Of a stretch of 36,425 nt of DNA, positions 1 to 18,436 are shown in pieces. Location: the NCBI GenBank assembly GCA_003209165.1, contig QCSL01000021.1:1-36425 (forward strand), written 5' to 3'. Within the stretch, counting starts at the first letter, position 1. The number at the start of each line of letters is the position of its first letter. A program made the position numbers and the translations under genes. The notes beneath the pieces are model-generated. The model saw only the letters and a list, made by a program, of their open reading frames with translations, had not been told where the DNA came from and searched no databases. The DNA comes from Synechococcus sp. AG-670-B23 (GTDB lineage Bacteria; Cyanobacteriota; Cyanobacteriia; PCC-6307; Cyanobiaceae).

Positions 1-927
1 ATCGGTGTCGCGACGCTGTACACCCTGTTCGGCGGGATGCGGGCCGTGATCGGTACCGATTTCATTCAGTCGCTGTTGATCATGGTGCTGCTGGCGGTGG
101 TGGCGGTGCTCGCTTTCCGGCAATTCCCGATGCCTGAGGTGCATGCTGCGTTGCTGTCTCGACATCCCGATCGGCTGGATCTGCTGCTGCCGGCGGGCTT
201 GTTGATCGCCTGGAATTCCGCCCTCTTTTCGATGGGCGAGGTGTTCCACAACAACATCTGGTGGTCCCGCGTCTTCGCCAGTCGGCGCTCGGTGGTGATG
301 ACTTCTTTTGTGTTTGGGGGAATCGCCTGGATGAGCGTGCCGATGGTGACGGGCTCTATTGGTCTGGTGGCCCTGGCCCGTGAGTTGCCCCTCGAGCAGG
401 TGAACATGGTTTTTCCAGTGATGGCAGCAGATCTCCTCGGGGCTGGCGGCGCGGCCCTGGTGTTTGTAGTGGTGTTTGCTTCGCTCACCTCCACCTTGGA
501 TTCGCTGCTGGCATCCACCGCCGATCTGTTGGCAGAGGATGTTTACTTCCGCCTGTTGCGGCCACAGGCCAGCGACCTGCAGCTCAAGCAGGCGGCACGG
601 CTGATGGTGGTGGTCTTGGCGGTGGTCACCCTGGCGCTGTCCTGGCCGCGGCTGGATTCGCTGGCGTCGGTGCTGTTCTTCACCGGTGCCCTGGTGGCCT
701 CCACGGTTTGGCCTGTGGCGTGTGGGCTCTACTGGAGGACGGCCAACCGCATGGCTGCCATTGCGGCCATGCTCGCCGGCAGTGTTGTGGGCCTGCTCGC
801 TTATGAGTTGATTGCGCCCTACTGCGCTGCTGTGTTTTCGGCGGCCGTTTCGGCGGTTGTGATGCTGATTGGCAGTCGCATGCGCCCGGAACGCTTTGAC
901 TTCACCTTGTTGCAGGAGGAGGGATGA
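1..927 (+). CDS. Sodium:solute symporter, DUR3-like (5' truncated by window)
   Basis: This is the C-terminal part (309 residues visible) of a sodium/solute symporter family (SSS) permease. The reading frame is open from base 1, so the true start lies outside the window. About seven hydrophobic segments are visible. Family-type stretches include GGMRAVIGTDFIQ near the start, a FHNNIWWSR segment, and the FASLTSTLDSLLAS helix that resembles the SSS sodium-site helix. The spacing (a conserved glycine/proline-rich helix, then LTSTLDS, then an acidic D-V-Y) recalls DUR3-type urea permeases, so uptake of urea or a urea derivative is my inference; other SSS substrates such as amino acids are possible. 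It overlaps the next small ORF by 4 bases (ATGA), which indicates cotranslation. Family assignment is firm, substrate is not. Confidence 0.85.
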   Translation: MGVATLYTLFGGMRAVIGTDFIQSLLIMVLLAVVAVLAFRQFPMPEVHAALLSRHPDRLDLLLPAGLLIAWNSALFSMGEVFHNNIWWSRVFASRRSVVMTSFVFGGIAWMSVPMVTGSIGLVALARELPLEQVNMVFPVMAADLLGAGGAALVFVVVFASLTSTLDSLLASTADLLAEDVYFRLLRPQASDLQLKQAARLMVVVLAVVTLALSWPRLDSLASVLFFTGALVASTVWPVACGLYWRTANRMAAIAAMLAGSVVGLLAYELIAPYCAAVFSAAVSAVVMLIGSRMRPERFDFTLLQEEG

Positions 928-1073
928 TCCAAATGGTTCCTTTGATGGCCGGCCTTGTTGGTCTGACCGGCTTTCAGTTCCTGCTGGTGGCCAGTCAGCT
1001 CGCCCTGGTGCTGTCGGTGCTCGTGCTGCTGCTGATCTGGTGGGTGGAGTGGCGGCATGGACGAGTCTGGTGA
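924..1073 (+). CDS. 49-residue single-span membrane peptide coupled to the symporter
   Basis: The ATG overlaps the TGA of the symporter (ATGA), and the preceding bases read AGGAGG, a strong ribosome binding site. The product has one long hydrophobic stretch, about residues 8-40, ending in WWVEWRHGRVW, so a positively charged, tryptophan-rich tail follows the membrane span. I recognise no family. The tight coupling suggests a small subunit or assembly partner of the symporter, as small accessory peptides occur with other secondary transporters. This is inference from position and hydrophobicity only. It could also be an unimportant read-on frame, but the good Shine-Dalgarno sequence argues against that. 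Confidence 0.6.
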   Translation: MIQMVPLMAGLVGLTGFQFLLVASQLALVLSVLVLLLIWWVEWRHGRVW

Positions 1074-1098
1074 TGTCTCCCTGAGCCAGACACCACAG

Positions 1099-1156
1099 CA
1101 CACTCCTTTCAGAATCTTTGCTTAAGAAGCTGCTTCTTCGTGGACGAAGGAGTGTG
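1099..1156 (+). promoter_or_regulatory. Nested dyad in the leader of the carbamoyltransferase gene
   Basis: An outer 10-base inverted repeat (CACACTCCTT at 1099-1108, AAGGAGTGTG at 1147-1156) encloses an inner perfect repeat, AAGAAGC-T-GCTTCTT, at 1124-1138. No T run follows, so it is not a clear intrinsic terminator. It lies between the symporter unit and the carbamoyltransferase and may be a processing, attenuation or protein-binding site. Confidence 0.5.
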
Positions 1157-1195
1157 GTTGTTGTTACCGGTAAAAGATGTAGTTCCTGGCTCTAG

Positions 1196-1218
1196 CACTC
1201 GGTTTGGCAAACAGAGTG
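1196..1218 (+). promoter_or_regulatory. Second dyad just upstream of the carbamoyltransferase start
   Basis: CACTC and GAGTG (5 bp) flank an inner GTTTG-G-CAAAC palindrome, giving a nearly continuous 23-base dyad that ends 16 bases before the ATG at 1235. No Shine-Dalgarno sequence is visible between it and the ATG, so a role in translation or repressor binding is possible. Function is not shown by the sequence. Confidence 0.4.
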
Positions 1219-1234
1219 TTGATCCGATCCCGCT

Positions 1235-2350
1235 ATGGCACAGGTCAAATCAGCAGTTGTGGACGCGTCGTCTGTTCAGATTCGGTTTCAGCCGATGGGG
1301 CCCGATGTCTACGGGCAGAACCAACCCCAGGAACTGTTGGCCGCGATTGCTGAAGACGCGGAGCCTTTGAAGGATTTGGTGGATCAGCACGTGGTGTCGA
1401 TCCAACCGTTCCGCCCCGAGGTTTTGTTGCAGGTGTTTCGCCTGGCGGCGAAGTTTGAGAGCAATCCAGATCGCTATTGCCGTCACAACACGCCGCTCAC
1501 AGGAAAGATTCTGATTAACGCGTTTTACGAACCGAGCACGCGCACGCGGCTGTCCTTTGACAGTGCCTGGCATCGCCTTGGCGGTACCTCCATCAACATC
1601 ACAGACAGGGCCACCACAGGGATCGCTAAGGGCGAGTCTCTCGAAGATGTCGCCCATATGTTCAACAACTACGGCGATTGTGTCGTGCTGCGGGATAGCG
1701 ATCCCGGTGCCGTTTATGCGATGACGTCAACCCTTCGGATCCCAATCATCAACGCTGGGAATGGGATCGATGAGCATCCAACCCAGGCGATGGCCGATCT
1801 GTACACGATCTTCAAGTGGCGGCCCAAGCTGGCTGAGTTGGACGTGACACCTGCAGATCGGATTCGCATTGGGATCGTCGGAATTCCTTCGCGGATGCGA
1901 ACGGTTCGCTCACTCCTGAGGATCCTGGCCAAATTCCCGCAGACCGTGGAGGAGGTGGTGGTGATTCACGCCCCCGGCCTGGAGCCGGATCAGCCGCTCT
2001 TCGACCCAGGACAGTTGGAGGAGCTTGAAGCTTGTGGGATGAAGGTTCGTTCTAGTACCGATCTGCAGGCTGAAGTACCAGACTTGGATGTTGTATACAT
2101 CAATGCCATCGCCTGGGTGGGCGAGTCCTATGAAGTGCACGGCGGAGGATTTCGCCTCACCCGCAATATGCCATTCAAACCGGAAGCGATCGTGCTTCAT
2201 CCCTTGGCGCGGGGAGCGGAACTGAGCACTTGCCTGGATGACACGCCCCACAATTGGTACTTCAGTCAGGCCAGGGGAGCCGTGTTCCTGCGGATGGCTC
2301 TGCTCACCTGCATGGTGGATCGGGCCGAACGCGTGATGGATGTGATCTGA
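1235..2350 (+). CDS. Aspartate/ornithine carbamoyltransferase-family protein with altered substrate loop
   Basis: A 371-residue member of the carbamoyltransferase family, longer than typical PyrB (about 310) because of an N-terminal extension of roughly 50 residues. The carbamoyl-phosphate site is intact: STRTR at 101-105, a Lys in AKGES (132, matching the PyrB 80s loop), R153, HPTQ at 181-184 and RTV near 222. The aspartate-binding parts are not canonical. The PyrB loop with R-x-Q is replaced by INAIAWVGESYE (289-300), and the HPLPR motif reads HPLAR (322-326). I infer that it carbamoylates an amine other than aspartate. It sits 9 bases before the amidotransferase gene and close to a carbamoyl-amino-acid hydrolase. 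The alternative is a divergent PyrB; a normal pyrB elsewhere in the genome would exclude this. Confidence 0.85.
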   Translation: MAQVKSAVVDASSVQIRFQPMGPDVYGQNQPQELLAAIAEDAEPLKDLVDQHVVSIQPFRPEVLLQVFRLAAKFESNPDRYCRHNTPLTGKILINAFYEPSTRTRLSFDSAWHRLGGTSINITDRATTGIAKGESLEDVAHMFNNYGDCVVLRDSDPGAVYAMTSTLRIPIINAGNGIDEHPTQAMADLYTIFKWRPKLAELDVTPADRIRIGIVGIPSRMRTVRSLLRILAKFPQTVEEVVVIHAPGLEPDQPLFDPGQLEELEACGMKVRSSTDLQAEVPDLDVVYINAIAWVGESYEVHGGGFRLTRNMPFKPEAIVLHPLARGAELSTCLDDTPHNWYFSQARGAVFLRMALLTCMVDRAERVMDVI

Positions 2351-2359
2351 GGCGGTCTG

Positions 2360-4384
2360 ATGTGCGGAATTGGAGGTGTTTTCAACGCAGAGTGTCGTCA
2401 GACGGTGGATCGCCAGCTCCTGGCCAACATGGCGGCAATTCAGGCCCATCGCGGGCCGGATGGTTTCGGCGTTGAGGTATTGGATCAGGCGGGTGTTGGC
2501 TTCTGCCATGCCCGGCTTTCGATCATTGATCTGAACGAGTCTCGGGCCCGGCAGCCCTTCCTCACCGATGACGGTGAAGTGCTGATGGCCCACAACGGTG
2601 AGTTTTACGACTTCCAGCGGATTAGGGCTGACCTCACAGCTCAGGGGGTGCGTTTCAGCAGCAAGAGCGATTCCGAGATTCTGATGCGTCTGTACCAACG
2701 CCAGGGGTTGGAGGCGACTTTGCCTTTGTTGCGGGGGGAATTTGCCTTCGCCTTGTTTGATCGGGCGAAGGACTGCCTTTACCTGGTGCGGGATCGCTTC
2801 GGCATCAAACCGCAGTACTGGGCAATGACGCCCGGGGGTCTGGTGTTCGGTTCCGAATTGAAGGTGTTGTTCGCTCATCCGGCGGTGGAGCGACGCTTCA
2901 CCTCGGAGGGTCTGTTCCATCAATTGATGCAAACCATGGTTCCAGGCACCACAGCCTTTGCCGGTGTGCACCAGGTGAAGCCCGGCCATGTGCTGAAGGT
3001 GCAACGTGCGAACGGGCGGCTGGAGGTGTCGGAGTCGACCTATTGGGATGTCGACTTTCCCCGCAAAGACGAGCGGGACCCCAAACAGACCGAGGCCGAT
3101 CACATTGCTGCAGTTCGTGCGTCGTTGTTGGAGGCCGTTGAGCTGCGCATGGTGGCCGATGTGCCTGTGGGCTGTTATCTCTCCGGCGGCATCGATAGCT
3201 GTTCGATCCTCGGTTTGGCGTCAGCTGTAAGCCAGGCACCGGTGAAGGCGTTCACGATTGGATTTGATGACGCCCGTTACGACGAATCGCCGATCGCCCG
3301 AGAGATGGCTGAGGCCACGGGAGCTGAGCAGGATTTGATGCGTCTGTCGGGCCAGGAGCTTTATGGCCACATGGAGCGCACCATCTGGCACGCCGAGCGA
3401 ACGATCTACAACACCTTGGCGGTGGCGAAGTTCTTGATGAGCCGCCACGTCAACGACGTGGATTACAAGGTCGTGATGACTGGTGAAGGATCGGATGAGT
3501 TGTTCGGCGGCTATCCCGCCTTTCGCCGCGACATGTTCCTCCACGGTCTTGATGACCTGCCGCAGGAGGAGCGCGCCAGCTGGGAAAGCCTGTTGCAGCA
3601 GTCCAATGCTCTGGTGCAGGGGGCGATGCTGGCTGAAAACCAGGTGGAGGACCCCGATCTCGATGCCGTGGTCGGCTTCACCCCCAGTTGCCTGCAGCCG
3701 TGGCTGGCCTGCGCGCCCTTGGTGCCGGAGCTTCTGGCGGAGTCCCATGCTGCAGCTTTGCAAAATTACTCTCCGGGCAAGGCGATCGCCGAGCAACTCG
3801 ATGCGGATCAGTTGGAAGGGCGCCACGCCCTGGACAAGGCCCAGTACGTATGGATCAAAACAATGTTGGAGGGCCAGATCCTGACCTGGGGTGGTGACCG
3901 GGTCGATATGGCCAATTCGATGGAGGCAAGACCAGCCTTCTTAGATCACCATCTGGCCGCGGTGGCGGTGCAGGTGCCACCTGAACTGCGGATCAAGGGG
4001 AAAACCGAGAAATATGTGCTGAGGGAAGCCATGGCGGGCCTCTTGCCGGAGGTGTTGTATCGGCGCGAGAAGTTCGCCTTCATGGCGCCGCCGGCCCACA
4101 CGGAGCCTGAGAAGTGGGAGCAGATGAAGCAGCTCGCCGATGACTACCTCAGTGATGAGGCGATCGATGCTGCTGGTTTGTTAAGTAAAGCTGGTGTGCG
4201 CGCCTTGTTTGCGCGTCACGAGGACCCTGCCACCACTGATGCGGAGCGTGTGCAGATGGATGCGGTGATCAATCACCTGCTGGGTGTGCAGATGCTGCAT
4301 CGCATGTTTGTGGCCGAAGACGTCCCATCCCTGGCCCGTCGAGAAGCTGACCGCTTGGGCTGGCGGGTGCTGATGCCCGTTTAA
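2360..4384 (+). CDS. Asparagine-synthase-type glutamine amidotransferase
   Basis: A 674-residue two-domain enzyme of the AsnB family. The N-terminal Ntn glutaminase domain starts MCGIGG, so Cys2 is the nucleophile after Met removal, and shows AHRGPDGFG, HNGEFYDF and RDRFGIKP. The C-terminal synthase domain has the ATP pyrophosphatase loop SGGIDS near 275-280, then GEGSDELFGGYP and SMEARPAFLDHH. It should adenylate a carboxylate and transfer glutamine-derived ammonia to make an amide. It is longer than E. coli AsnB (554) and follows the carbamoyltransferase by 9 bases, so they are probably cotranscribed. Relatives include both true asparagine synthases and amidotransferases that amidate other carboxylates, such as the N-acetylglutaminylglutamine amide enzyme; sequence alone does not settle which. 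I leave the gene symbol blank for this reason. Confidence 0.88.
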   Translation: MCGIGGVFNAECRQTVDRQLLANMAAIQAHRGPDGFGVEVLDQAGVGFCHARLSIIDLNESRARQPFLTDDGEVLMAHNGEFYDFQRIRADLTAQGVRFSSKSDSEILMRLYQRQGLEATLPLLRGEFAFALFDRAKDCLYLVRDRFGIKPQYWAMTPGGLVFGSELKVLFAHPAVERRFTSEGLFHQLMQTMVPGTTAFAGVHQVKPGHVLKVQRANGRLEVSESTYWDVDFPRKDERDPKQTEADHIAAVRASLLEAVELRMVADVPVGCYLSGGIDSCSILGLASAVSQAPVKAFTIGFDDARYDESPIAREMAEATGAEQDLMRLSGQELYGHMERTIWHAERTIYNTLAVAKFLMSRHVNDVDYKVVMTGEGSDELFGGYPAFRRDMFLHGLDDLPQEERASWESLLQQSNALVQGAMLAENQVEDPDLDAVVGFTPSCLQPWLACAPLVPELLAESHAAALQNYSPGKAIAEQLDADQLEGRHALDKAQYVWIKTMLEGQILTWGGDRVDMANSMEARPAFLDHHLAAVAVQVPPELRIKGKTEKYVLREAMAGLLPEVLYRREKFAFMAPPAHTEPEKWEQMKQLADDYLSDEAIDAAGLLSKAGVRALFARHEDPATTDAERVQMDAVINHLLGVQMLHRMFVAEDVPSLARREADRLGWRVLMPV

Positions 4385-4478
4385 ATTTTTTGGTGAGGGT
4401 GAAACCGTTGCTTTAGCTACAGGGCTACGACTGCTTTCAGGTGAATATTTACCTTCGTTTGAAACGCAGGTCACGGCA

Positions 4479-5768
4479 TTGCCCACGCTCATCCCGGCTT
4501 CTTCGACCACTCCTGCAACCGGGATCGAGCCAAGCAAACTTGCTGCGCGCCCAAACCTTGATCGGCTGGTTGGAACGATTGAACAGCTTGCAAGCATTGG
4601 CGCCAAGCCTGATGGCAGCGTTTGCCGGCGCGGTTTTTCAGCTGAAGACGTCCAGGGCCGTGAGTTGCTAGCCCATTGGATGAAACAGCTCGGCATGCAG
4701 GTGCGTGTCGATGCGGCTGGCAATTTGATCGGACGTCTTGAAGGACTCGATCCCCACCGTCCTGCTTTGGTGACCGGTTCGCACCTCGACACGGTGCCCA
4801 CCGGTGGACGTTTTGATGGGGCCCTAGGGGTGTTGGCTGGTCTGGAAGCCTGCCGTGCTCTTCAAGACCAGGGCCTAAAGCTGCGCCATGGCATCGAATT
4901 GATCGCCTTTGCCGACGAGGAGTCGACCATGGTGGGGTGCAAGGGCTTGGCAGGCACGGCCTCTGATGACCCGGATACGTATGCCACCAGCAACGGTCAG
5001 CCGATTCAAGACAACCTGGCGCGCATTGGGGGACATTGGCCGTCCTTGACCTCGGCCCGTCGCTCCGATGAGGCTTATGCAGCTTTCCTTGAGTTGCATG
5101 TTGAGCAGGGTGGCGTTCTTGAGCAACGCGGCGATGCAATCGGCGTTGTGGAGGGGGTTGTAGGTCAGCGTCGGTTCAGCATCAATGTGCAGGGCCAGGC
5201 CAACCACGCCGGCACCACACCGATGGGATTGCGACAGGACGCTCTCGTGGCGGCCTCGCGGATTGTTCTTGCCGTGGAGGCCATGGCCTCCCGTCATTCA
5301 GGGGATCCGGTGGCGACGGTGGGTCGACTGGACGTTTGGCCCAATGCCGCCAATGTTGTTCCTGGGGCCGTTGCCCTAACGGTTGACCTTAGGGATGTGG
5401 ATCCGACTGTTCTCGATCAACTGGTGGAGGAGTTGATGCAGCAGGTGGAAAGCATCGGTGCTGAAACAGGCTGCCCGATCGCGGTGGACCCACAATTTAG
5501 TGTTGATCCCACCCCTGCTGATGCTGCGGTGATGGCCGCGATTGCTGAGGCTTCTGCCGATCTCGGCCTGTCCCACAGCCATCTTCCCAGCCGTGCCAGT
5601 CACGATGCCCAGGAGGTGGGTCGCCGCTGGCCGATGGGCATGATTTTTGTTCCTAGCCAGGGGGGCTTGAGTCATTCTGCTGCAGAGTTCACCAGCGATG
5701 AGCAGTGCTGGGCAGGCACCGCGGTGCTCCTGGAAACGTTGCTTCGGTTGGACCGTCAACTGCTGTGA
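4479..5768 (+). CDS. N-carbamoyl-L-amino-acid hydrolase / allantoate amidohydrolase (M20 family)
   Basis: About 429 residues, the usual length for the HyuC/AllC branch of the M20 metallohydrolases, which cleave N-carbamoyl amino acids or allantoate to release ammonia and CO2. Metal-ligand motifs are present in order: GSHLDTV near residue 100, DGALGV, ADEES, ELHVEQG, and a C-terminal GLSHSAAEF. The dimerisation-domain stretch QANHAGTTPMGLRQDA is also typical. The start is uncertain: no in-frame ATG or GTG precedes the conserved part, and the best candidate is TTG at 4479, although the frame stays open upstream. It follows the amidotransferase by 94 bases and overlaps the DUF1028 gene by 4 bases. 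In this setting it could turn over the product of the two preceding enzymes. Confidence 0.85.
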   Translation: MPTLIPASSTTPATGIEPSKLAARPNLDRLVGTIEQLASIGAKPDGSVCRRGFSAEDVQGRELLAHWMKQLGMQVRVDAAGNLIGRLEGLDPHRPALVTGSHLDTVPTGGRFDGALGVLAGLEACRALQDQGLKLRHGIELIAFADEESTMVGCKGLAGTASDDPDTYATSNGQPIQDNLARIGGHWPSLTSARRSDEAYAAFLELHVEQGGVLEQRGDAIGVVEGVVGQRRFSINVQGQANHAGTTPMGLRQDALVAASRIVLAVEAMASRHSGDPVATVGRLDVWPNAANVVPGAVALTVDLRDVDPTVLDQLVEELMQQVESIGAETGCPIAVDPQFSVDPTPADAAVMAAIAEASADLGLSHSHLPSRASHDAQEVGRRWPMGMIFVPSQGGLSHSAAEFTSDEQCWAGTAVLLETLLRLDRQLL

Positions 5769-6439
5769 CATTTTCAATCCTGGCCCGTGACCCCAACAAC
5801 GGCCGTTTTGGTGTGGCAGTGGCTACCTGTCATTTAGCCGTTGGATCAACTGTTCCCCACATCCGCGCGGGGGTTGGTGCTGTTGCGACCCAGGCTCATA
5901 CCAATCCCTATCTGGGGATTTGCGGCCTTGAACGCTTGGAGCAGAGCTCGGATGCAGAAAGTGTTCTGGCCAGCCTTCTGGCGGAGGACCAACACCGTGA
6001 CCGGCGTCAGTTTCACCTGATTGACTTGGACGGTCGCACGGCCTGTTGGACTGGGCAGGATTGCGGCCCTTGGGCAGGGCATCGCCATCAGCGTGATCTG
6101 TCCGTTGCTGGCAATTGCTTGATAGACCAGGGCGTTTTGGATGCGATGGAGCAGGCCTTTCTCACCAGCGATCCCAGCCTGAAATTGGGTCGCCGCTTGA
6201 TGATTGCCTTGCAATCCGGGGAAGCGGCAGGCGGCGATCGCCGCTCCAGTCTCTGCACCTCAGCGGCGGTTCAGGTAAGTGGTGAAGCCGCTTTCCCGCT
6301 GTTGGATCTGCGTGTTGATTTCCATGAGCGTGCGGTGGAGCAGTTGATGGAGGTGTATGAGCGCAGCCAGGCACTTTGGGCCCAGGAGTGGAGGGATGAA
6401 CTCTCAGAGCTGCCCATGCTCAACCGCTTGGTGGCTTGA
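5765..6439 (+). CDS. DUF1028 family protein (Ntn-hydrolase-like)
   Basis: A protein of about 224 residues matching the DUF1028 family: the start VTFSILARDPNNGRFGVAVA is the family signature, followed by an AVGSTVPHIRAGVGAVATQA region. I chose GTG at 5765, which overlaps the TGA of the preceding hydrolase (GTGA), because family members begin immediately before this motif; the frame is open further upstream inside the previous gene. DUF1028 proteins have an Ntn-hydrolase-like fold but no agreed reaction, and they are often found beside amino-acid or peptide hydrolases. The coupling with a carbamoyl-amino-acid hydrolase suggests action on the same substrate or a derivative. Family call is good, function unknown. 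Confidence 0.82.
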   Translation: MTFSILARDPNNGRFGVAVATCHLAVGSTVPHIRAGVGAVATQAHTNPYLGICGLERLEQSSDAESVLASLLAEDQHRDRRQFHLIDLDGRTACWTGQDCGPWAGHRHQRDLSVAGNCLIDQGVLDAMEQAFLTSDPSLKLGRRLMIALQSGEAAGGDRRSSLCTSAAVQVSGEAAFPLLDLRVDFHERAVEQLMEVYERSQALWAQEWRDELSELPMLNRLVA

Positions 6440-6466
6440 GAATTCACTTTCATTTGCTCCATTAAG

Positions 6467-6500
6467 AAGCCCCGCAAACTTCTATGTTGCAGGGCTTTTT
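6467..6500 (+). terminator. Rho-independent terminator after the carbamoyl/amide cluster
   Basis: AAGCCCCGCAA and TTGCAGGGCTT form an 11-bp stem with one mismatch and a 9-base loop, followed directly by a T run. It lies 27 bases after the DUF1028 stop and serves the plus-strand operon; the stem could also act for the convergent small gene. Confidence 0.8.
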
Positions 6501-7174: not shown

Positions 7175-7929
7175 TTAGTGGGACTGGCTGATGTCAATCA
7201 GCTGATCGAGTGCAGCATTGAACAGGTGTCGGCCTTGCTCTTGGAGCTTGGCGCCAAGCTTGTGCCATTCCCGCCCCAAGCGATCGGGCCCTTCAGGGCC
7301 AAGGGCGTTCACCACGTAGTTGAGGTCGTTGGCGATCCAACGCTTGAGCGCATGTCCATCGACCTCGAGGTGGCATTGCAGGCCAATGGCGTGGGCTCCA
7401 ATCCGAAACACCTGTTCCGCGCAGTGCAGCGAGGAACCCAGCAGGGTTGCATCAGTCGGCAGTTGGATACGGTCGCCATGCCAATGCAGCACCAAGCTGC
7501 TGTGTGGTTGCCCCTGCAGCAGGGGCTCATCGCTTGGATCAGCGACCCAGTGGATCGCTCCGAGACCCAGTTCCTTCAGCGGCTGCGGCGGTGTTCCAGC
7601 CTGCAAGGGTTGCACAGCGCCCCCTGCAGCAACAGCCAACAGCTGCGCCCCCAGGCAGATGCCCAGCACAGGTCGGCGTTGTTGGTGCCAGGCCGTCAGC
7701 CAGTCCAGCTCCTGTCGCAACCAGTCCATGTCCTGTTGGTTGCGGTCGTTCACGCTCATCGGTCCCCCCAGTACCAGCGCAATGCTGTTCGCACATGTGT
7801 TGAGGTCCGGCAGGGGATCGCCCTGATCGGGCCTCAGGGTCTGGACTGCCATGCCTCTTTGCCGTGCTAGTTGTCCCACCAGTGCGGCGTCTTCGTGGTC
7901 AACGTGTTGGAACACCAGCAGGGTGGGGC

Positions 7930-7933
<4 letters not shown>
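7175..7933 (-). CDS. Class I glutamine amidotransferase domain protein coupled to ureC
   Basis: About 252 residues forming a stand-alone class I glutaminase domain like that of GMP synthase: LGGPMSVND, the nucleophile elbow [10 protein letters not shown] with its Cys, and a late QCHLEVDG containing the catalytic His-x-Glu pair. Such proteins hydrolyse glutamine or a gamma-glutamyl compound, but no synthase partner is fused here. I chose TTG at 7933, which overlaps the ureC stop (TTGA); the next upstream ATG at 7981 would place 16 unlike residues inside ureC. It is the last gene of the ureDABC unit. Position suggests a link with nitrogen release or glutamine handling, but its true substrate is unknown. 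Confidence 0.8.
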
Positions 7934-9639
<1,706 letters not shown>

Positions 9640-11788: not shown

Positions 11789-12456
11789 CCTCCTTGGCGT
11801 TGTTGCAACTGGCTAGCCCGGCCTTGCCGGTGGGTGCCTTCTGCTACTCAGAGGGTCTGGAGGTGTTGATTCAGGCGGGCACCATCGCTGATGAGCAGGC
11901 CATTGAGGCATGGTTGGAGGCTGAACTTCAACGGGGCGCGGTGCGGCTGGAAGCCGCTGCGTTAACCCCTCTGGCGGATGCCCTGGTGGGTTGGTCAAGC
12001 CAGGCCGACGCAGTGGCCAAGGCGTGCTTGATCGACTTGGATGGTTGGCTGTTGGCCACCCGTGAAGCAGCTGAGCTGCGAGCCCAGCAGCGTCAGATGG
12101 GGATGTCGTTGCTGCAGTTGATGTCTGACATGGGGCACGATCTGCCTGAACCCGTCGCCTTGAGCTGGCCAGCGGCCTGGGCCTGGGCTGCTGTGGGCTT
12201 GTCGGTTCCAGCTGGAGACATGGTTGAGGGATACCTCTATGGCTGGGTTGCAAATCAGCTCAGTGCGTCGGTGCGGCTGTTGCCGTTGGGTCCGTCCAGA
12301 GCTCAGGTGCTGCAACAGCGGCTGCTGCCGATGATTGCTTCGCAAGCGCAGCTGCTCCAGGGGGCCGATCCGCAGCAGCTCTGGAGCAGCGGTGTGGGTG
12401 CGGGCATGGCTCAGCTTGCCCATGCTGAGCTATACACACGCCTGTTTCGAAGCTGA
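11785..12456 (+). CDS. ureF: Urease accessory protein UreF
   Basis: About 223 residues of the UreF family: [21 protein letters not shown] is the hallmark N-terminus. It bridges UreD-bound apo-urease and the GTPase UreG and helps gate GTP hydrolysis. The ATG at 11785 overlaps the ureE stop (ATGA), and the stop overlaps the ureG ATG by one base (TGATG), so ureEFG are translationally coupled. The longer frame from 11731 lies inside ureE and is not needed. Confidence 0.94.
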
Positions 12457-13061
12457 TGAGCAGCAAACTGCGCCTGGGGGTGGCAGGTCCCGTGGGATCC
12501 GGCAAGACCGCACTGGTGGAGGCGCTTTGTCGCCGCTTGCGCGACGACCTACAGATCGCGGTGGTCACCAATGACATCTACACCCAGGAGGATGCCCAGT
12601 TCTTGACTCGTGCCGGTGCCCTGGATCCAGAGCGGATCCGTGGGGTGGAGACCGGCGGTTGCCCTCACACGGCAATCCGTGAAGACTGCTCGATCAATAG
12701 AGCAGCTGTGGCGGAGCTGGAGGCGCAATTCCCTGATCTTGATCTTGTTTTGGTTGAAAGTGGTGGCGACAACCTGGCGGCGAGCTTCAGCCCGGAACTG
12801 GTGGATCTCTGTATCTATGTGATTGATGTGGCGGCTGGCGACAAGATCCCCCGCAAGGGTGGGCCTGGCATCACCCGCTCTGATCTGCTGGTGATCAACA
12901 AGATTGATCTGGCTTCACAGGTCGGTGCTGACCTTGCGGTGATGGAACAGGACACCCGGCGTATGCGTGGCGAGCGGCCGTGGTGCTTCACCAACCTCCA
13001 CAGCGGTGAAGGGCTGGAGCAGGTGTTGACGTTCTTGTCGCAACAGCTACCAAATTGGTAG
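12456..13061 (+). CDS. ureG: Urease accessory GTPase UreG
   Basis: 201 residues, the usual length. It is the GTPase that drives nickel insertion into urease. The P-loop GPVGSGKT is at residues 10-17; other motifs are [10 protein letters not shown], the metal-binding [14 protein letters not shown] (Cys-Pro-His), ESGGDNLAA and the base-specificity motif NKIDLA. It starts within the ureF stop codon and ends 117 bases before urtA. Confidence 0.97.
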
Positions 13062-13129: not shown

Positions 13130-13178
13130 TTGAGGACGCCCCTTGGCGGTTCTTATCTCTTCGCTTGTCTTTCGGGAA

Positions 13179-14477
13179 ATGATTAGTTCACTTTCAAAGC
13201 GAGTTCTTGCTGGCTTCGCTGCAACAGCTGTTGGCGTCACCATGACTGCTTGCGGTGGCGGCGGTGACTCTGCCGGCGGCGATTTCGACGGCGAAATCAA
13301 GGTGGGCATTCTCCACTCCCTGAGTGGAACCATGGCGATCTCTGAAACCACCCTCAAGGAGGTTGAGGAGATGGCTATCAAGGAGATCAACGATGCGGGT
13401 GGCGTCAAGATCGACGACAAGTCTTACAAGATCACCTATGTCTCTGAAGACGGTGCTTCTGATTGGCCCACCTTCGCTGAGAAGTCTCAGAAGCTGATCG
13501 ACGCCGACAAGGTTGCTGTGGTGTTCGGTGGCTGGACCTCAGCTAGCCGTAAGGCCATGCTCCCTGTCTATGAAGCTAAGGATCACTTCCTCTTCTACCC
13601 GATTCAGTACGAAGGTCAGGAGTGTTCTAAGAACATCTTCTACACAGGTGCTGTGCCCAACCAGCAGGCAGAGCCCGCTGTCGACTGGTTGTTCGAAAAA
13701 TTCGCCGACAAGTACGGCAAGAAGGTCTACCTCGTGGGTTCTGACTACGTTTACCCCCGCACGGCAAACACCATCATCAAAGAACAGGTCAAGAGCCTGG
13801 GTGGTGTAACTGTTGGTGAGGACTACATCCCCCTGGGTAACACTGAGGTTGCTCCGATTATCGCCAAGATCAAGAAGGAATTTCCCGATGGTGGAATTAT
13901 CATCAACACTCTGAACGGAGACTCCAACGTTGCTCTGTTCAAGCAGTTCAAGGCAGCTGGCATCACTCCTGACAAGTATCCGATCATGTCCTTCTCCATT
14001 GCGGAAGAAGAGATTCGCCAGATCGGTCCTGACTACGTCGGTGGCACCTACGCGGCATGGAACTACTTTATGTCCCTCGGAACTGAAGCTTCCAACACCT
14101 TCAATGAGGCCTTCATTGAGATGTACGGCGACGATCGGGTGACCAATGACCCGATGGAATCGGCCTACAACATGGTCTACCTCTGGAAGGCTGCTGTTGA
14201 GAAAGCCGGCACCTATGAGGATCTCGATGCTGTCAGAGATACTTTGATTGGCATCAAGTTGGATGCTCCGCAGGGTCCGATCGAGATGTACCCCAACCAC
14301 CACATCTCTCAAACCGTTCGCATCGGTGAAGCCAAGGCTGACGGTCAGTTTGAAATCCTTTGGGATAGCATGACGCCCGTTGCTCCAATCACTTGGAACC
14401 AGTACGTTCCTGAGACCAAGGGATTCGCCTGCGACTGGACTCTTGATCGTCCTGACGCTGGTAAGTTCAAGATGTGA
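13179..14477 (+). CDS. urtA: Urea ABC transporter substrate-binding protein
   Basis: 432 residues. It is the lipid-anchored periplasmic binding protein of the high-affinity urea transporter. The signal peptide spans roughly residues 1-25 and ends TMTAC, a lipobox with the Cys anchor followed by a Gly-rich linker. The mature part begins IKVGILHSLSGTMAISE, typical of the branched-chain amino acid/urea binding family, and contains FVGG-like VVFGGWTSASRKAMLPV and YPIQYEGQECSKNIFYTGA, which is characteristic of UrtA. I start at ATG 13179; the longer TTG frame from 13143 would spoil the signal peptide. A strong hairpin after the gene separates it from urtB. Confidence 0.95.
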   Translation: MISSLSKRVLAGFAATAVGVTMTACGGGGDSAGGDFDGEIKVGILHSLSGTMAISETTLKEVEEMAIKEINDAGGVKIDDKSYKITYVSEDGASDWPTFAEKSQKLIDADKVAVVFGGWTSASRKAMLPVYEAKDHFLFYPIQYEGQECSKNIFYTGAVPNQQAEPAVDWLFEKFADKYGKKVYLVGSDYVYPRTANTIIKEQVKSLGGVTVGEDYIPLGNTEVAPIIAKIKKEFPDGGIIINTLNGDSNVALFKQFKAAGITPDKYPIMSFSIAEEEIRQIGPDYVGGTYAAWNYFMSLGTEASNTFNEAFIEMYGDDRVTNDPMESAYNMVYLWKAAVEKAGTYEDLDAVRDTLIGIKLDAPQGPIEMYPNHHISQTVRIGEAKADGQFEILWDSMTPVAPITWNQYVPETKGFACDWTLDRPDAGKFKM

Positions 14478-14500
14478 TTCTTGATTCAGAAATGTAGTCC

Positions 14501-14535
14501 AAAGTGGATCAAACTTAGTTTGATCCACTTTTTTA
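14501..14535 (+). terminator. Intrinsic terminator between urtA and urtB
   Basis: A perfect 14-bp stem, AAAGTGGATCAAAC with GTTTGATCCACTTT, encloses a 3-base loop (TTA) and runs into a T-rich tail. It begins 23 bases after the urtA stop and ends about 16 bases before urtB. It likely stops much of the transcription, so that binding protein is made in excess over the permeases. Confidence 0.85.
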
Positions 14536-14550
14536 TTATCCTATGAAATC

Positions 14551-15711
14551 ATGGAGCTAGTTTTTTCACAGATTCTTGACGGCTTAAGCATCGGTTCTGT
14601 GCTTTTGCTTGCGGCGACTGGCTTGGCAATCGTCTTTGGATTGATGGGCGTTATTAACCTCGCCCATGGTGAATTTATGATGTTGGGCGCCTACGTTACG
14701 TTTGTGGTTCAGAACATATTCCGCCCTCTTGGGGGAACTGCTTTTGAGCTGTATTACATCGTGGCACTTGTTGCTTCCTTCGTGGTAACAGCCTTAGTTG
14801 GTGTTCTATTGGAGCGCACATTGATCCGTCGGTTGTATGGGCGCCCCCTCGAAACCCTTTTGGCGACATGGGGTGTCAGCCTGATCCTGATTCAGTTCGT
14901 TCGCAGTGTTTCGCTGGCCATGGTGTTGGGAATCGGTGTGACGGCACTGCTGGGGTGGTTAGCCCAACGCTTTTTGCCTATGTCTTTGAAACAAGCATCG
15001 TTTTCAAGCTATCTCGGTGGAGCTGTTTGGGCATTGGCAGGCGTACTGGGGATTTTTTCGATCAATATTTTCGTTTCGTTTGGGCGTTTTTTCTCCAATC
15101 CTTGGTTTGGGCCTAGAAATATTGACGTTACGGCACCCAAATGGTTGCAGGGAAGCTGGGGTTCGGTCGCTGGAATTGAGCTGCCTGGCATCAGGATTTT
15201 CATTATTGTCTTGTCGGCACTTTTGCTGGCAGCTGTTGCCTGGTTCCTGACCAAAAGTGTCTGGGGCGTTCGCATACGCTCAGTCACGCAAAACCGTGAA
15301 ATGAGTAACTGCCTTGGCATTCCTACCGACAGCGTTGACAGCATTACATTCGGCATTGGATCGGGTCTTGCTGGTGTAGCTGGTTGTGCCATCACCCTGC
15401 TGGGTTCTGTAGGTCCAAACCTCGGGGCGTCTTACATCGTCTCCTGCTTCATGGTGATTGTTCTTGGTGGTGTTGGAAACCTGGTCGGAACAGTAATTGC
15501 TTCCATGATGTTGGGGATTATTCAGTCCATCATTGGATCGGGTTCTCTGTTAATTGCGTTCCCGGATATGCCTTCAGGTTTGCAGGCTGTTACCGAGTTC
15601 TTTGCAACAACAAGTATGTCCTTGGTTCTCGTCTTTATCTTCATCATTGCCTTCCTTCAGTTCAAGCCAACCGGTATGTTCCCTCAAAAGGGACGATCAG
15701 TTGATGCTTAA
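14551..15711 (+). CDS. urtB: Urea ABC transporter permease UrtB
   Basis: 386 residues of the LivH-type inner-membrane permease family. The start ILDGLSIGSVLLLAATGLAIVFGLMGVINLAHGEFMMLGAY... is diagnostic (positions 8-48). A cytoplasmic loop near residues 235-255 carries the conserved ALR-like VRSVTQNREMSNCLGI segment that contacts the ATPases, and ASYIVSCFMVIVLGGVGNLVGT follows. About eight to ten membrane segments are visible. It pairs with UrtC and is energised by UrtD and UrtE. A Ser- and hydrophobic-rich insert at about 120-190 is also usual in UrtB. Confidence 0.94.
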   Translation: MELVFSQILDGLSIGSVLLLAATGLAIVFGLMGVINLAHGEFMMLGAYVTFVVQNIFRPLGGTAFELYYIVALVASFVVTALVGVLLERTLIRRLYGRPLETLLATWGVSLILIQFVRSVSLAMVLGIGVTALLGWLAQRFLPMSLKQASFSSYLGGAVWALAGVLGIFSINIFVSFGRFFSNPWFGPRNIDVTAPKWLQGSWGSVAGIELPGIRIFIIVLSALLLAAVAWFLTKSVWGVRIRSVTQNREMSNCLGIPTDSVDSITFGIGSGLAGVAGCAITLLGSVGPNLGASYIVSCFMVIVLGGVGNLVGTVIASMMLGIIQSIIGSGSLLIAFPDMPSGLQAVTEFFATTSMSLVLVFIFIIAFLQFKPTGMFPQKGRSVDA

Positions 15712-15729
15712 TTACTTTGCATTATTCCA

Positions 15730-16878
15730 ATGAAACTTTTTAAGCGCCTGATCCCCTGGATCCTTCTGGTTTTTGCCTTCTTTATATTGCCAGTGATGGC
15801 AGATAAAGACCTATTTGGTTTTTCCCAATTTCGACTAAATTTGTTTGGTCGCTACTTTTCCCTCGCCTTCGTTGCCCTTGGTATTGACCTTATCTGGGGT
15901 TATACGGGTTTGCTTAGTCTGGGTCAGGGGATTTTCTTCTCCCTCGGTGGTTACGCCATCGCGATGCACCTGTTGCTGGTCACCAAAAATGACTTTACAA
16001 CCGGCGCCAACGGATTGCCGAAATTCTTTGAAAACTATGGTGTCGATCAGTTGCCATTCTTTTGGGAACCTTTTTGGTCATTCCTTGTTTCGATAGCTGC
16101 AATTTTTATTGTCCCGTCGATTGTGGCAGGACTCGTTGGCTACCTCATTTTTAGAAACAGAATCAAGGGTGTGTACTTCTCAATTATCACCCAGGCCTCA
16201 TTGATGGTTTTTTACCACTTCTTCAATGGCCAGCAGAAACTTGTCAATGGAACTAATGGTCTTAAGACCAGCACGACTGAAATTTTTGGTCTGCAAGCTG
16301 GTTCAGATGATGCCCAGTTGCTTTTTTACCGCATCACGCTAATACTTCTTCCCTTCGCATTTTTGCTTTGCAAATATCTTACTTCTGGGCGCTTTGGTGA
16401 TTCACTTATTGGAATTCGTGATGATGAACCACGTCTTCGCTTTTCAGGTTTTAATCCAACTCCATTCAAGGTGATCGTCTTTATTGTCGCTGGTGCATTG
16501 GCTGGTGTTTCGGGTGCTCTTTATACAGTTCAGTCTGGTATTGTCTCTCCACAGTTCATGTCCATTTCAATGTCAATTGAAATGGTTATTTGGGTTGCTG
16601 TTGGAGGCAGGGGCACGCTCGTAGGTCCAATTCTTGGCGCTGTGGTTGTCAATTACCTTAGAAGTTTGGTTAGTGAGGCCCTGCCTGAAGCATGGTTATT
16701 TGTCCAAGGTGCATTATTTGTATTTGTTGTTGTTCTGATGCCTGATGGAATCTACGGATGGTTTACCAAAGGTGGATTCCGCGCCATGCTTGCAGCCTTC
16801 GGTTTAGCCAAGAAGACTGCAACCTATCCCAAGCTCGACCTTGATGAGTCAGCTCAAAGTGAGTCTGCATCAGCCTAA
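15730..16878 (+). CDS. urtC: Urea ABC transporter permease UrtC
   Basis: 382 residues of the LivM-type permease family. Family segments include YTGLLSLGQGIFFSLGGYAIAMHL (about 57-80), GVYFSIITQAS near 148 and GRFGDSLIGIRDDEPRLRFSGF near 225, the coupling loop facing the ATPases. After it come AGALAGVSGALYTVQSGIVSP and WVAVGGRGTLVGPILGA. It is 18 bases after urtB and 31 bases before urtD, consistent with one operon. Its codons are noticeably richer in T-ending choices than those of the urease genes. Confidence 0.94.
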   Translation: MKLFKRLIPWILLVFAFFILPVMADKDLFGFSQFRLNLFGRYFSLAFVALGIDLIWGYTGLLSLGQGIFFSLGGYAIAMHLLLVTKNDFTTGANGLPKFFENYGVDQLPFFWEPFWSFLVSIAAIFIVPSIVAGLVGYLIFRNRIKGVYFSIITQASLMVFYHFFNGQQKLVNGTNGLKTSTTEIFGLQAGSDDAQLLFYRITLILLPFAFLLCKYLTSGRFGDSLIGIRDDEPRLRFSGFNPTPFKVIVFIVAGALAGVSGALYTVQSGIVSPQFMSISMSIEMVIWVAVGGRGTLVGPILGAVVVNYLRSLVSEALPEAWLFVQGALFVFVVVLMPDGIYGWFTKGGFRAMLAAFGLAKKTATYPKLDLDESAQSESASA

Positions 16879-16909
16879 ATGTCTCTAATCTTCCTTTGAA
16901 TCTGCTCTC

Positions 16910-17659
16910 ATGTCGCAAACCATTCTTGATCTAGATGACGTCAGCGTCAGTTTTGATGGCTTCTATGCCCTCACAGATCTTTCCTTTTCACTACGCCCTG
17001 GTGAGCTTCGCTCGATTATCGGCCCAAATGGAGCCGGTAAAACAACTTTCCTGGATGTGATTACTGGCAAAGTCCGTCCAACAAAAGGGGATGTGACACT
17101 GCGAGGCAAAAGCATCGTCGGCCTATCTGAGCAAAAGATTTCTCGCCTTGGCGTTGGACGCAAGTTCCAGACTCCTCGTGTTTGGGAGAACTTGACTGTT
17201 CAGCGAAATCTTGAACTTACGGCATCGCCGAATAAGAATCCCTTCGCGCTCTTGACTGAAACTCTAAGTGATGTAGTCAAAGATGAAGTTTTCAAGATCA
17301 TGGAGTACGTGGGTCTCGCCCCTTATGCAAAGTGGCAGGCGGGGTCTTTGTCTCACGGCCAGAAGCAGTGGCTTGCTATCTCCATGTTGGTGGCCCAGTC
17401 TCCCGATATCATTCTCTTGGATGAGCCAGTCGCTGGTCTGACGGATGAGGAAACATCCAAAACTGCAGATCTAATCAAATCCCTTGCGGGCGAGCACACT
17501 GTTGTTGTGATTGAACACGACATGGAGTTTATTCGTGATCTTGGCGCTCCTGTTACTGTGCTTCATCAAGGCCAGAAACTGACCGAAGGGATGCTGGAGG
17601 AGGTAAAGGCAGATCCCCGTGTCATTGAAGTGTATCTCGGCGAATCTGATGATGACTAA
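16910..17659 (+). CDS. urtD: Urea ABC transporter ATPase UrtD
   Basis: 249 residues. It is an LivG-type ABC ATPase with Walker A GPNGAGKTT near residue 39, Q-loop region VGRKFQTPRVWENLTV, signature SLSHGQKQWLAI, Walker B IILLDEPVAGL and the switch His in VVIEHDMEF. The unusual signature SHGQ (in place of SGGQ) is characteristic of UrtD proteins. It forms a heterodimer with UrtE at the cytoplasmic face. It is followed by urtE after a short gap. Confidence 0.95.
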   Translation: MSQTILDLDDVSVSFDGFYALTDLSFSLRPGELRSIIGPNGAGKTTFLDVITGKVRPTKGDVTLRGKSIVGLSEQKISRLGVGRKFQTPRVWENLTVQRNLELTASPNKNPFALLTETLSDVVKDEVFKIMEYVGLAPYAKWQAGSLSHGQKQWLAISMLVAQSPDIILLDEPVAGLTDEETSKTADLIKSLAGEHTVVVIEHDMEFIRDLGAPVTVLHQGQKLTEGMLEEVKADPRVIEVYLGESDDD

Positions 17660-17710
17660 ATATTCCTTGCATTGAATTTTATGCTGACTGCAATTCCTGA
17701 ATCATCTACC

Positions 17711-18436
17711 ATGCACCCAACTTCTACTGACTTAATTCTTAAGGCATCTGGTATCAACGTTTATTATGGCGAAGGTCACATTCTCAGGGATGTTGATCTT
17801 CAAATTCCACAGGGAGAAATGGTCTGCCTGATCGGTCGAAATGGTGTGGGTAAAACCACGTTCTTGAAAACATTGATCGGTCTGCTTCAGCAGAAAAGTG
17901 GTTCTATTGAATATGAGTCAACTCAGCTACTTAAACAACCTCCATATCGTCGCGCACGCAACGGCATTGGCTATGTTTCCCAAGGTAGGGATATCATTCC
18001 TCGTCTCACAGTTCGTGAAAATTTGATGCTTGGTATGGAAGCTCTCCCTGGTGGAATGGGTAAAAATCGCCATATTGACCCCTTCATCTACGAACTTTTC
18101 CCCATTCTTGAGGAGTTTCTTAATCGGCGTGGTGGTGACCTAAGTGGTGGTCAGCAGCAACAGCTGGCCATTGCTCGTGCGTTGCTTGGCAAGCCCAAGC
18201 TTCTCTTGCTCGATGAGCCGACCGAGGGTATTCAGCCATCGATCATTCTTGATATTGAGCGTGCTGTTCAGCGCATCATCAAGGAGACCGGCATCAGTGT
18301 TTTATTGGTTGAACAGCATCTCCACTTTGTCCGTCAATCGAATTTCTACTACGCTATGCAGCGGGGTGGAATTGTGTCCAGTGGCCCCACGTCCTCCCTG
18401 TCTGAGGCCGTCGTTCAAGAGTTCCTCACTGTTTAG
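17711..18436 (+). CDS. urtE: Urea ABC transporter ATPase UrtE
   Basis: About 241 residues, LivF-type ABC ATPase. Motifs: Walker A GRNGVGKTT, Q-loop IGYVSQGRDIIPRLTVREN, signature LSGGQQQQLAIARAL, Walker B LLLLDEPTEGIQP and switch His in LLVEQHLHF. The RDIIPRLTV segment is typical of UrtE. The start is uncertain: ATG at 17711 gives a family-like N-terminus; ATG at 17681 in the same frame would add 10 residues, and neither has a clear ribosome binding site. It is the last gene of the urt operon. Confidence 0.93.
   Translation: MHPTSTDLILKASGINVYYGEGHILRDVDLQIPQGEMVCLIGRNGVGKTTFLKTLIGLLQQKSGSIEYESTQLLKQPPYRRARNGIGYVSQGRDIIPRLTVRENLMLGMEALPGGMGKNRHIDPFIYELFPILEEFLNRRGGDLSGGQQQQLAIARALLGKPKLLLLDEPTEGIQPSIILDIERAVQRIIKETGISVLLVEQHLHFVRQSNFYYAMQRGGIVSSGPTSSLSEAVVQEFLTV

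Follow-up and report, generated by a model that had tools for sequence, protein, structure and literature searches.

Nα-carbamoyl-L-glutamine 1-amide (CGA) is an osmolyte, named as a possible product by an earlier sequence-only reading of the DNA analysed here. According to PMC1224877, CGA was isolated from Ectothiorhodospira marismortui. In the openly licensed papers searched, no gene assignment for CGA biosynthesis was found, and the accessible portions of PMC5818414 and PMC5231179 contain nothing on the pathway. A close analogue is the NAGGN pathway (asnO-ngg), in which, according to PMC8070244, an AsnB-type enzyme amidates an N-blocked glutamine derivative at its carboxylate to give an osmolyte, while a peptidase gene adjoins the NAGGN genes in Pseudomonas. 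For the transcarbamylase superfamily, PMC4581275 describes that R229 and Q231 of the motif RxQxER, present in all known ATCases, anchor the beta-carboxyl of aspartate, that R167 and K84 of ATCase position the alpha-carboxyl, and that some variation exists in the motifs of the superfamily.

The window, i.e. the whole analysed stretch of 36,425 nucleotides from Synechococcus sp. AG-670-B23, carries a carbamoyltransferase of a new subfamily (CT) next to an AsnB-type amidotransferase. Judged by sequence and gene context, these two enzymes probably make CGA or a close analogue, which an amidase and a carbamoylase would recycle.

Gene run in the window

Open reading frames and profile searches revealed one plus-strand run of an SSF symporter, CT, an AsnB-type amidotransferase, an N-carbamoyl-amino-acid hydrolase and a DUF1028 protein. 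All genes named by the sequence-only reading are thus present, and the coordinates also confirm the close spacing of AsnB to CT and the coupling of DUF1028 described there. The gene of the SSF sodium:solute symporter (1..927, plus strand as all following features) is cut at its 5' end by the contig start. Its product passed PF00474 with 79.6 bits and matched generic or other SSF models only, the best NCBIfam match being TIGR00813 with 144 bits compared to a cut-off of 184. Generic SSF models were also matched by a full-length relative (L033, 475 aa from the chosen start codon). As for the earlier term "DUR3-like symporter", the protein is a symporter of the SSF family, and none of the models tested marks it as DUR3.

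An ORF at 924..1073, which was missing from the earlier reading, overlaps the SSF stop (ATGA) and encodes a single-span membrane protein of 49 aa with no Pfam match. A similar small ORF with a C-terminus of the W..E[WY]....W type was observed in 16 of the 19 cyanobacterial loci examined and was not found in L048, L051 and L063. The 49-aa protein is possibly a small companion of SSF.

CT (1235..2350) is separated by 9 bases from the ATG of the glutamine-dependent amidotransferase gene (2360..4384), which comprises GATase and Asn_synthase domains. The following gene encodes an M20-family N-carbamoyl-L-amino-acid hydrolase (about 4479..5768, start codon uncertain), the stop of which overlaps by 4 bases with the GTG start of the DUF1028 gene (5765..6439). 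A terminator-like hairpin followed by a T run lies at about 6465..6500, with a folding energy of -20 kcal/mol (z of -4.1) and an equally good fold in 0 of 200 shuffles. This agrees with the terminator claimed after the run, though the consensus terminator scan of the window lists none there. The promoter scan found no promoter.

In its genomic context, the cassette of the window adjoins genes for urease, UrtABCDE urea transport and formamidase.

The CT pocket and the pairing of CT with AsnB

CT matches OTCace_N and OTCace and reached 192.2 bits with the ATCase equivalog TIGR00670 (cut-off 236.95) and 98.4 bits with the OTCase equivalog (cut-off 280.85), in line with its earlier description as an altered carbamoyltransferase. 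Identity with a known NCBIfam equivalog (ATCase, OTCase, putrescine, YgeW, N-acetylornithine) was rejected, as no cut-off was reached. In its own genome, CT is the third carbamoyltransferase beside an ArgF and a PyrB with the ATCase motif RxQxER, both encoded elsewhere, which corresponds to three OTCace_N matches. Exactly three such matches were counted in 26/26 genomes with the cassette, and 2, 2, 2, 2, 2 and 0 in six family members without CT. The sequence-only reading had considered that CT could be the genome's only PyrB, which is not the case.

The pocket was compared in 120 CT proteins, i.e. 119 loci and the window, excluding L206 (BSL-9), in which CT lies in two frames. Four sequences are present twice in this set, and L050/L092 as well as L051/L110 are one genome each, reached by two routes. 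STRT, KGE, HPTQ and HPLARG were each found in 120/120 proteins. The SxRT and HPxQ carbamoyl-phosphate motifs of the superfamily are thus kept throughout (120/120 each), while HxLP occurs in 0/120 and HPLARG stands in its place in all 120. The columns of ATCase R167 and K84 hold R and K in 120/120 proteins, whereas the column of R229 showed A in 110, S in 9 and T in 1, and the column of Q231 A in 108, S in 9 and V in 3. RxQxER is absent from the 240s loop, the sole R.Q.ER string of the set (L058, position 263) preceding this loop. The OTCase motif DxxxSMG was not met at the loop position in the CT set either; the D...SMG strings in L209, L210 and L212 begin 9 residues past the YxN start, the OTCase motif 2 past its Tyr. 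As judged from these columns, CT retains the residues for the alpha-carboxylate as well as the carbamoyl-phosphate site and is devoid of the aspartate side-chain residues in 120/120 cases. These changes appear to rule out an aspartate-type binding better than they point to glutamine, and CT is proposed to carbamoylate L-glutamine, or an amino acid close to it, at the alpha-amine. In the CT tree, for which 75 of the 120 rows were kept after thinning at 95%, the cyanobacterial sequences group together.

AsnB lies directly downstream of CT in 116 of the 117 loci whose sequence extends at least 600 bases beyond CT. Among 151 genomes of the window's family (Cyanobiaceae), 22 comprise both genes, 0 only CT, 1 only AsnB and 128 neither; in the AsnB-only genome (G138) the match starts at base 2 of a contig and is cut by the contig end. 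The 47 genomes of the Ectothiorhodospira family include 40 with both genes, one with CT and an edge-cut AsnB fragment (G574), one with AsnB only (G570) and 5 with neither, and in G588 both genes are kept about 0.7 Mb apart. A search of the cyanobacterial phylum gave 17 positives in 386 genomes, each positive bearing the label of the family to which the window belongs, and at class level on the Ectothiorhodospira side CT was present in 23/369. In one search for relatives, the best 80 of 193 were kept. The locus groups behind the clade counts are our own lists and include the oddly titled bins L060 and L068. Altogether, the pair recurs from picocyanobacteria to many Proteobacteria, presumably of marine and halophilic habitats. 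CT and AsnB co-diverge with an r of 0.89, a value which shared ancestry alone would raise. This comparison covered 105 rows, the window among them, after 15 of the 120 loci had been set aside for lack of a complete AsnB frame. The genomic co-occurrence of the two synthetic genes, part of a check suggested earlier, was observed, and the CT-AsnB arrangement is a conserved module beyond chance. Carriage by phages or plasmids was rejected, since none of 48 pattern matches in viral_contigs was a confirmed relative and plasmids gave no match at 1e-60.

The AsnB-type protein begins with MCGIGG, showing Cys2 after Met1, contains an SGGIDS loop and matches PF00733 and PF13522/PF13537. Full-length unbroken cassette AsnB proteins scored at least 1224 bits against A3, compared to at most 401.5 for other AsnB proteins. 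The score with TIGR03104 (NAGGN amidotransferase AsnO) was 299.2 bits, under the cut-off of 570.1, while the score with TIGR01536 (430.7 bits) lies above the cut-off of 267.1, so that NCBIfam names the protein an asparagine synthase. Together with the predicted ATCase-like fold of CT, this name would fit a housekeeping role, namely a PyrB paralogue that has diverged, an asparagine synthetase next to it and a degradative hydrolase close by. AsnB is indeed the only strong Asn_synthase match in its own genome (87.7% complete), as the sequence-only reading had considered possible, but the unconserved pairing considered along with it was not found. Furthermore, 103 of the 151 family genomes showed no AsnB match at E<=1e-60, and most relatives therefore manage without one. 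Given also the separate PyrB and ArgF, the three OTCace_N matches, the R229 and Q231 equivalents missing in every CT protein and the recurrence of the pair across two phyla, the housekeeping role was rejected as highly improbable. Instead, the AsnB-type enzyme is proposed to amidate the carbamoyl amino acid at its alpha-carboxylate.

Probable link to CGA and proposed recycling

The genome of E. marismortui DSM 4180 (G498) carries Hyd-Iso-CT-AsnB, Iso being an isochorismatase-family protein. The genes predicted for a CGA-type solute were thus found in the source species of CGA, with 61% identity to the window for CT and 67% for AsnB. The hydrolases are 36% identical and may, on this basis, be separate recruits. 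The CGA match rests on one species, and since CT was found in 41 of the 47 Ectothiorhodospira-family genomes, its occurrence does not single out E. marismortui. To our knowledge, CGA has not been reported from Synechococcus, Prochlorococcus, Kangiella or Idiomarina-type bacteria. A Kangiella genome paper (PMC6000758) suggests an asparagine synthase of one species as a possible source of asparagine.

The proposal is based on gene content, linkage and co-occurrence, on the altered pocket of CT, on the Ntn fold and N-terminal Thr of the DUF1028 model described below and on the presence in the CGA source species; from these we infer the substrate, the order of the steps, the bond cut by each hydrolase and the cargo of the transporter. 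CT would transfer the carbamoyl group of carbamoyl phosphate onto the alpha-amine of L-glutamine, and the AsnB-type enzyme would amidate the alpha-carboxylate at the expense of ATP, a second glutamine donating its amide nitrogen. During recycling, the carboxylate would be freed by an amidase (DUF1028 in cyanobacteria, the isochorismatase-family enzyme in Ectothiorhodospira relatives), and the M20 hydrolase would remove the carbamoyl group, releasing CO2, ammonia and glutamine. The number of hydrolases, two, matches the single carbamoyl and the single amide bond to be cut, which counts for a CGA-type recycling. The SSF symporter, where present, probably transports the solute or one of its precursors and would serve the uptake or recapture of the solute.

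The same chemistry could also act on another substrate, giving an N-carbamoylated amide derived from a different neutral amino acid (e.g. asparagine), or on an amide that is carbamoylated afterwards, with nitrogen storage rather than an osmotic function as the main role. The pocket data, which show only the loss of the aspartate side-chain anchor, are compatible with this, and the urease, urea-transport and formamidase genes make a nitrogen context plausible. However, CGA is the known compound of this type and the module is present in its source species, and UreC occurred within the fetched flanks of 5/20 loci in one set and 3/80 in another, all Synechococcus-type, so that the urease link is local. 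We consider these variants unlikely. Overall, the earlier reading of a pathway to a carbamoylated amino-acid amide is supported, with substrate and product deduced from context, while its "nitrogen reserve" is, like DUR3, not directly supported.

The M20 hydrolase exceeded the cut-off of TIGR01879 (hydantoinase/carbamoylase; 399.4 compared to 204 bits). Its top score, which speaks for the proposal, was obtained with the ErtE N-carbamyl-L-glutamate hydrolase model NF058540 (430.6 bits, under the cut-off of 520). As a point against the proposal, it also passed the subfamily model NF006771 "allantoate amidohydrolase" (418.0 compared to 399 bits) and remained under TIGR03176 AllC (284 compared to 597.75) and NF006768 allantoate deiminase (336.7 compared to 532). 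In a phototroph relative (L198), the M20 protein likewise scored best with NF006771 (522.9 bits, cut-off 399), ErtE reaching only 385, which also counts against the proposal. The top PDB relative of the window protein is the N-carbamoyl-L-amino acid hydrolase 3n5f.

DUF1028 (PF06267) showed a Thr after the start codon in 44/44 located cases from 50 loci, and MTYS was present in 4 of the 6 not located. Its predicted fold matches 2imh, followed by proteasome subunits and HslV, i.e. an Ntn-hydrolase fold. According to this model, it is plausibly a proteasome-like hydrolase with an N-terminal Thr and a candidate amidase for the 1-amide. A full-text search of openly licensed papers gave no paper on DUF1028 proteins.

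DUF1028 was found in 40/40 cyanobacterial loci flanked by 5 kb to either side, and Iso in 16 of 17 Ectothiorhodospira-family loci. In the 38 loci of other Proteobacteria with 5 kb on both sides, the hydrolase was not found in 15, DUF1028 was present in 0 and Iso in 3 (L213-L215, the only ones of this group); in the named proteobacterial loci, no isochorismatase-type protein was found at 1e-5. SSF lies directly upstream of CT in 35/35 Synechococcus/Cyanobium-type and 40/40 other proteobacterial loci with enough flank, in 0/21 Prochlorococcus-type and in 4/17 Ectothiorhodospira-family loci. A symporter and two hydrolases in cyanobacteria would suit a purely catabolic cassette, in which a ureido or N-carbamoyl compound is imported from outside and CT runs toward carbamoyl phosphate. 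We regard this as very improbable, since the conserved partner of CT is an ATP- and glutamine-consuming amidotransferase, i.e. a biosynthetic step, whereas for each of the others, namely the hydrolases, DUF1028 and SSF, there are lineages that lack it in the vicinity of CT.

Within the preferred reading of CGA-type synthesis, cassette carriers might recycle the solute by the carbamoylase and a lineage-specific amidase, which would be the first function for DUF1028, and recapture it by a dedicated symporter, which could allow marine cells to exchange it; the chances for and against this extension appear equal to us. If the proposed pathway is true, two genes account for CGA biosynthesis, and the known solutes of marine picocyanobacteria, as well as those of many heterotrophs of the sea, gain an osmolyte rich in nitrogen (4 N per 6 C). 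It would also set a transcarbamylase subfamily apart from the true aspartate carbamoyltransferases and give DUF1028 proteins a candidate role.

Comparison with known systems

CT resembles ATCase (PyrB) in its predicted fold, its carbamoyl-phosphate site and its alpha-carboxylate residues. It differs in the 240s loop lacking RxQxER, in HPLA instead of HxLP and in an extra N-terminal stretch, and it coexists with a PyrB that carries RxQxER. The M20 hydrolase shares with ErtE and the hydantoinase/carbamoylase family its family membership and probably the hydrolysis of a carbamoyl group; unlike ErtE, it lies below the cut-off, passes an allantoate-labelled model and is linked to a biosynthetic pair. 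DUF1028 is similar to SPO2555 (PDB 2imh) in its predicted fold (Foldseek E of 2.3e-17, 34-35% identity); the SPO2555 entry carries no function in our outputs, while the role of the window protein is proposed from its context. With the NAGGN pathway, the cassette would have in common the AsnB-type amidation of an N-blocked glutamine derivative, a hydrolase-type gene beside it and an osmolyte as product, whereas the N-blocking would proceed through carbamoylation by a transcarbamylase-family enzyme and not through acetylation and a peptide bond.

Gene content of the cassette and its surroundings

All genes named by the sequence-only reading were recovered on the plus strand: a symporter of the SSF family (1-927, family match) truncated at its 5' end, a third carbamoyltransferase (CT, 1235-2350) and, 9 bases later, an AsnB-type amidotransferase (AsnB, 2360-4384), followed by an N-carbamoyl hydrolase of the M20 family (about 4479-5768) and a DUF1028 protein. 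The DUF1028 gene begins with a GTG at 5765 that overlaps the hydrolase stop. The matches of the symporter place it in SSF and give its label as DUR3-like no further support. An ORF of 49 aa with one membrane span (924-1073, plus strand, no Pfam match), which is coupled to the symporter, had been overlooked; of 19 cyanobacterial loci inspected, 16 have a similar ORF. The terminator proposed after the run is retained as a terminator-like hairpin found by folding 3' of the DUF1028 gene, but a consensus terminator scan of the window did not list it.

In four proteobacterial cassettes, a protein of 149-186 aa lies directly before the symporter (L096 6889-7425, L109 7027-7476, L102 6839-7399, L105 6913-7416). 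All four show an apparent signal and one C-terminal span, and possibly represent another symporter partner.

Further downstream in the window, the urease alpha subunit (7930-9639, minus strand), UreG (12456-13061) and UrtABCDE (13143-18436) each scored above their NCBIfam cut-offs. A class-I glutamine-amidotransferase-like ORF (7175-7981, minus strand) adjoins ureC, and a formamidase (20250-21299, minus strand; NF009803, 600 bits, cut-off 406) is a further small-amide nitrogen gene close to the cassette.

The carbamoyltransferase and its pairing with AsnB

The host genome (2.27 Mb, 87.7% complete) holds three OTCace_N proteins. One adjoins an FtsH-like ORF, carries the OTCase motif DVWASMG and was taken as ArgF, the second carries the ATCase motif RLQKER and was taken as PyrB, and CT shows neither motif. 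A role of CT in pyrimidine synthesis was therefore rejected, and the possibility that it is the only PyrB of the genome did not hold. Exactly three OTCace_N proteins were counted in 26/26 cassette-bearing genomes. For the Ectothiorhodospira family (15 genomes counted), eight genomes with CT had three, the six without CT had 2, 2, 2, 2, 2 and 0, and Ectothiorhodospira sp. BSL-9 gave four because its CT gene is split across two frames (L206, reversed coordinates 8273-9348).

The motifs STRT, KGE, HPTQ and HPLARG were found in all 120 aligned CT proteins (119 loci and the window). The columns of ATCase residues R167 and K84, which position the alpha-carboxyl, were R and K throughout, whereas those of R229 and Q231, which anchor the beta-carboxyl of aspartate (PMC4581275), read A (110), S (9) or T (1) and A (108), S (9) or V (3), respectively; the HxLP position reads HPLA in every protein. 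Judged from these kept and changed columns, the ligand should be a free alpha-amino acid without a side-chain acid held as in ATCase, and glutamine would fit such a pocket. The AlphaFold model of CT (mean pLDDT 83.0) had ATCases as its best structural matches.

A scan of named genomes gave 193 CT relatives, of which the best 80 came from Synechococcus, Cyanobium, Prochlorococcus, Kangiella, Aliikangiella, Pleionea, Idiomarina-type genera, Pseudoalteromonas, Kordiimonas and others; among these and in the CT tree, Synechococcus proteins were the named ones nearest to the window CT. Of 120 loci surveyed, 117 had enough flank, and AsnB was next downstream of CT in 116, which bears out the proposed conserved pairing; in the sole exception (L205), the genome carries an AsnB at a distance of about 0.7 Mb.

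In searches with an AsnB alignment, unbroken full-length cassette members scored at least 1224 bits and other AsnB proteins at most 401.5, while the cut or split proteins of G138, G580, G574 and G049 lay between these ranges or below. CT was present in 22/151 Cyanobiaceae genomes, always with AsnB; none had CT only, 128 had neither, and one (G138) had AsnB only, with a match beginning at base 2 of its contig. The Ectothiorhodospira family (47 genomes) comprised 40 with both and five with neither, besides G574 (CT with an edge-cut AsnB fragment) and G570 (AsnB only). In broader samples, CT occurred in 23/369 Gammaproteobacteria and in 17/386 genomes of the cyanobacterial phylum, all 17 being Cyanobiaceae. 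One Cyanobiaceae genome (G922) carries two CT genes (C1:2535827 and C1:1682796).

All five cassette genes occurred together in 20/20 fetched Cyanobiaceae loci, in six of which DUF1028 is inverted between AsnB and the hydrolase. No symporter was found directly upstream of CT in 21 Prochlorococcus-type loci or in Ectothiorhodospira phototrophs. L066 and other Prochlorococcus-type loci have CT, AsnB, hydrolase and DUF1028 without an adjoining symporter, and their CTs form a long branch inside the cyanobacterial clade. When the count is limited to loci with 5 kb of flank on each side, 27/27 Synechococcus-type, 13/13 Prochlorococcus-type, 16/17 Ectothiorhodospira-family and 23/38 other proteobacterial cases have the hydrolase. 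The near-constant core of the cassette is CT plus AsnB.

Hydrolases of the proposed recycling branch

Two bonds would have to be cut to break down a carbamoyl amino-acid amide. The M20 protein is a member of the carbamoylase family, and its closest PDB structure is an N-carbamoyl-L-amino acid hydrolase. Since its top NCBIfam score was ErtE (430, 520 required) and yet it passed the subfamily model named allantoate amidohydrolase (418, cut-off 399), it may be of either the carbamoylase or the allantoate type; an M20 relative in L198 (Ectothiorhodospira family) reached 523 with the latter model.

The DUF1028 model (mean pLDDT 85.5) matched the DUF1028 protein SPO2555 (2imh) and, more weakly, proteasome subunits and HslV. 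The alignments run from residue 2 of the model, a threonine, and from chain residue 1 in most proteasome matches. Thr directly follows the start codon in all 44 cases located among 50 examined, and MTYS occurs in four of the other six. With 5 kb on both sides, DUF1028 was found in 40/40 cyanobacterial and 0/55 proteobacterial loci, while 16/17 loci of the Ectothiorhodospira family have an isochorismatase-family protein, whose nearest model is biuret amidohydrolase (below cut-off) and whose nearest structures are of the N-carbamoylsarcosine amidase type. Such a swap of one hydrolase family for another would be expected of a fixed reaction, and each hydrolase may act on one bond of the carbamoyl amide.

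The CGA source species and the NAGGN route

The osmolyte N-alpha-carbamoyl-L-glutamine 1-amide (CGA) was isolated from E. marismortui (Galinski and Oren 1991, as cited in PMC1224877 and PMC5231179). The genome of this species (G498, strain DSM 4180) has adjacent genes for an M20 hydrolase, an isochorismatase-family protein, CT and AsnB, in this order, with identities to the window of 61% (CT), 67% (AsnB) and 36% (hydrolase). Its 17-kb locus and that of G549 (GC 68.5% and 68.7%) share 93.6% identity, in line with the values published for E. marismortui and E. mobilis (GC 68.2/68.3%, ANI 92.6; PMC8877833). In the Gammaproteobacteria sample, two of six PufLM-bearing genomes have CT; their family has it in 41/47 genomes, including all 11 PufLM-bearing members, one as a partial match. 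Because the module is common throughout this family, its presence in the source species is one strong coincidence and not a correlation over producers. In L198 (11197-12105), L201, L204 and L207 of this family, AsnB is followed by a gene for a mechanosensitive channel (MscS), consistent with an osmotic role.

A gene assignment for CGA was not found in openly licensed literature, by compound or by gene pair; a review of phototroph osmolytes names N-carbamoyl-glutamine amide in a passage without mention of genes (PMC7824335). For one Kangiella species, it was suggested that an asparagine synthase could make asparagine (PMC6000758). Altogether, the conserved CT-AsnB pair, the pocket changes and the source species support a pathway for a carbamoylated amino-acid amide, as first proposed, and its product is probably CGA or a very close relative, with the CT substrate inferred.

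The N-acetylglutaminylglutamine amide (NAGGN) route includes the amidation of an N-blocked glutamine derivative by AsnO (PMC8070244), and a corresponding step is proposed here for the AsnB-type enzyme. The window AsnB as a NAGGN AsnO was rejected, since the TIGR03104 cut-off was not reached. Because the blocking chemistry differs as well, the cassette is not a member of the NAGGN route, although the parallel drawn by the sequence-only reading holds as an analogous working.
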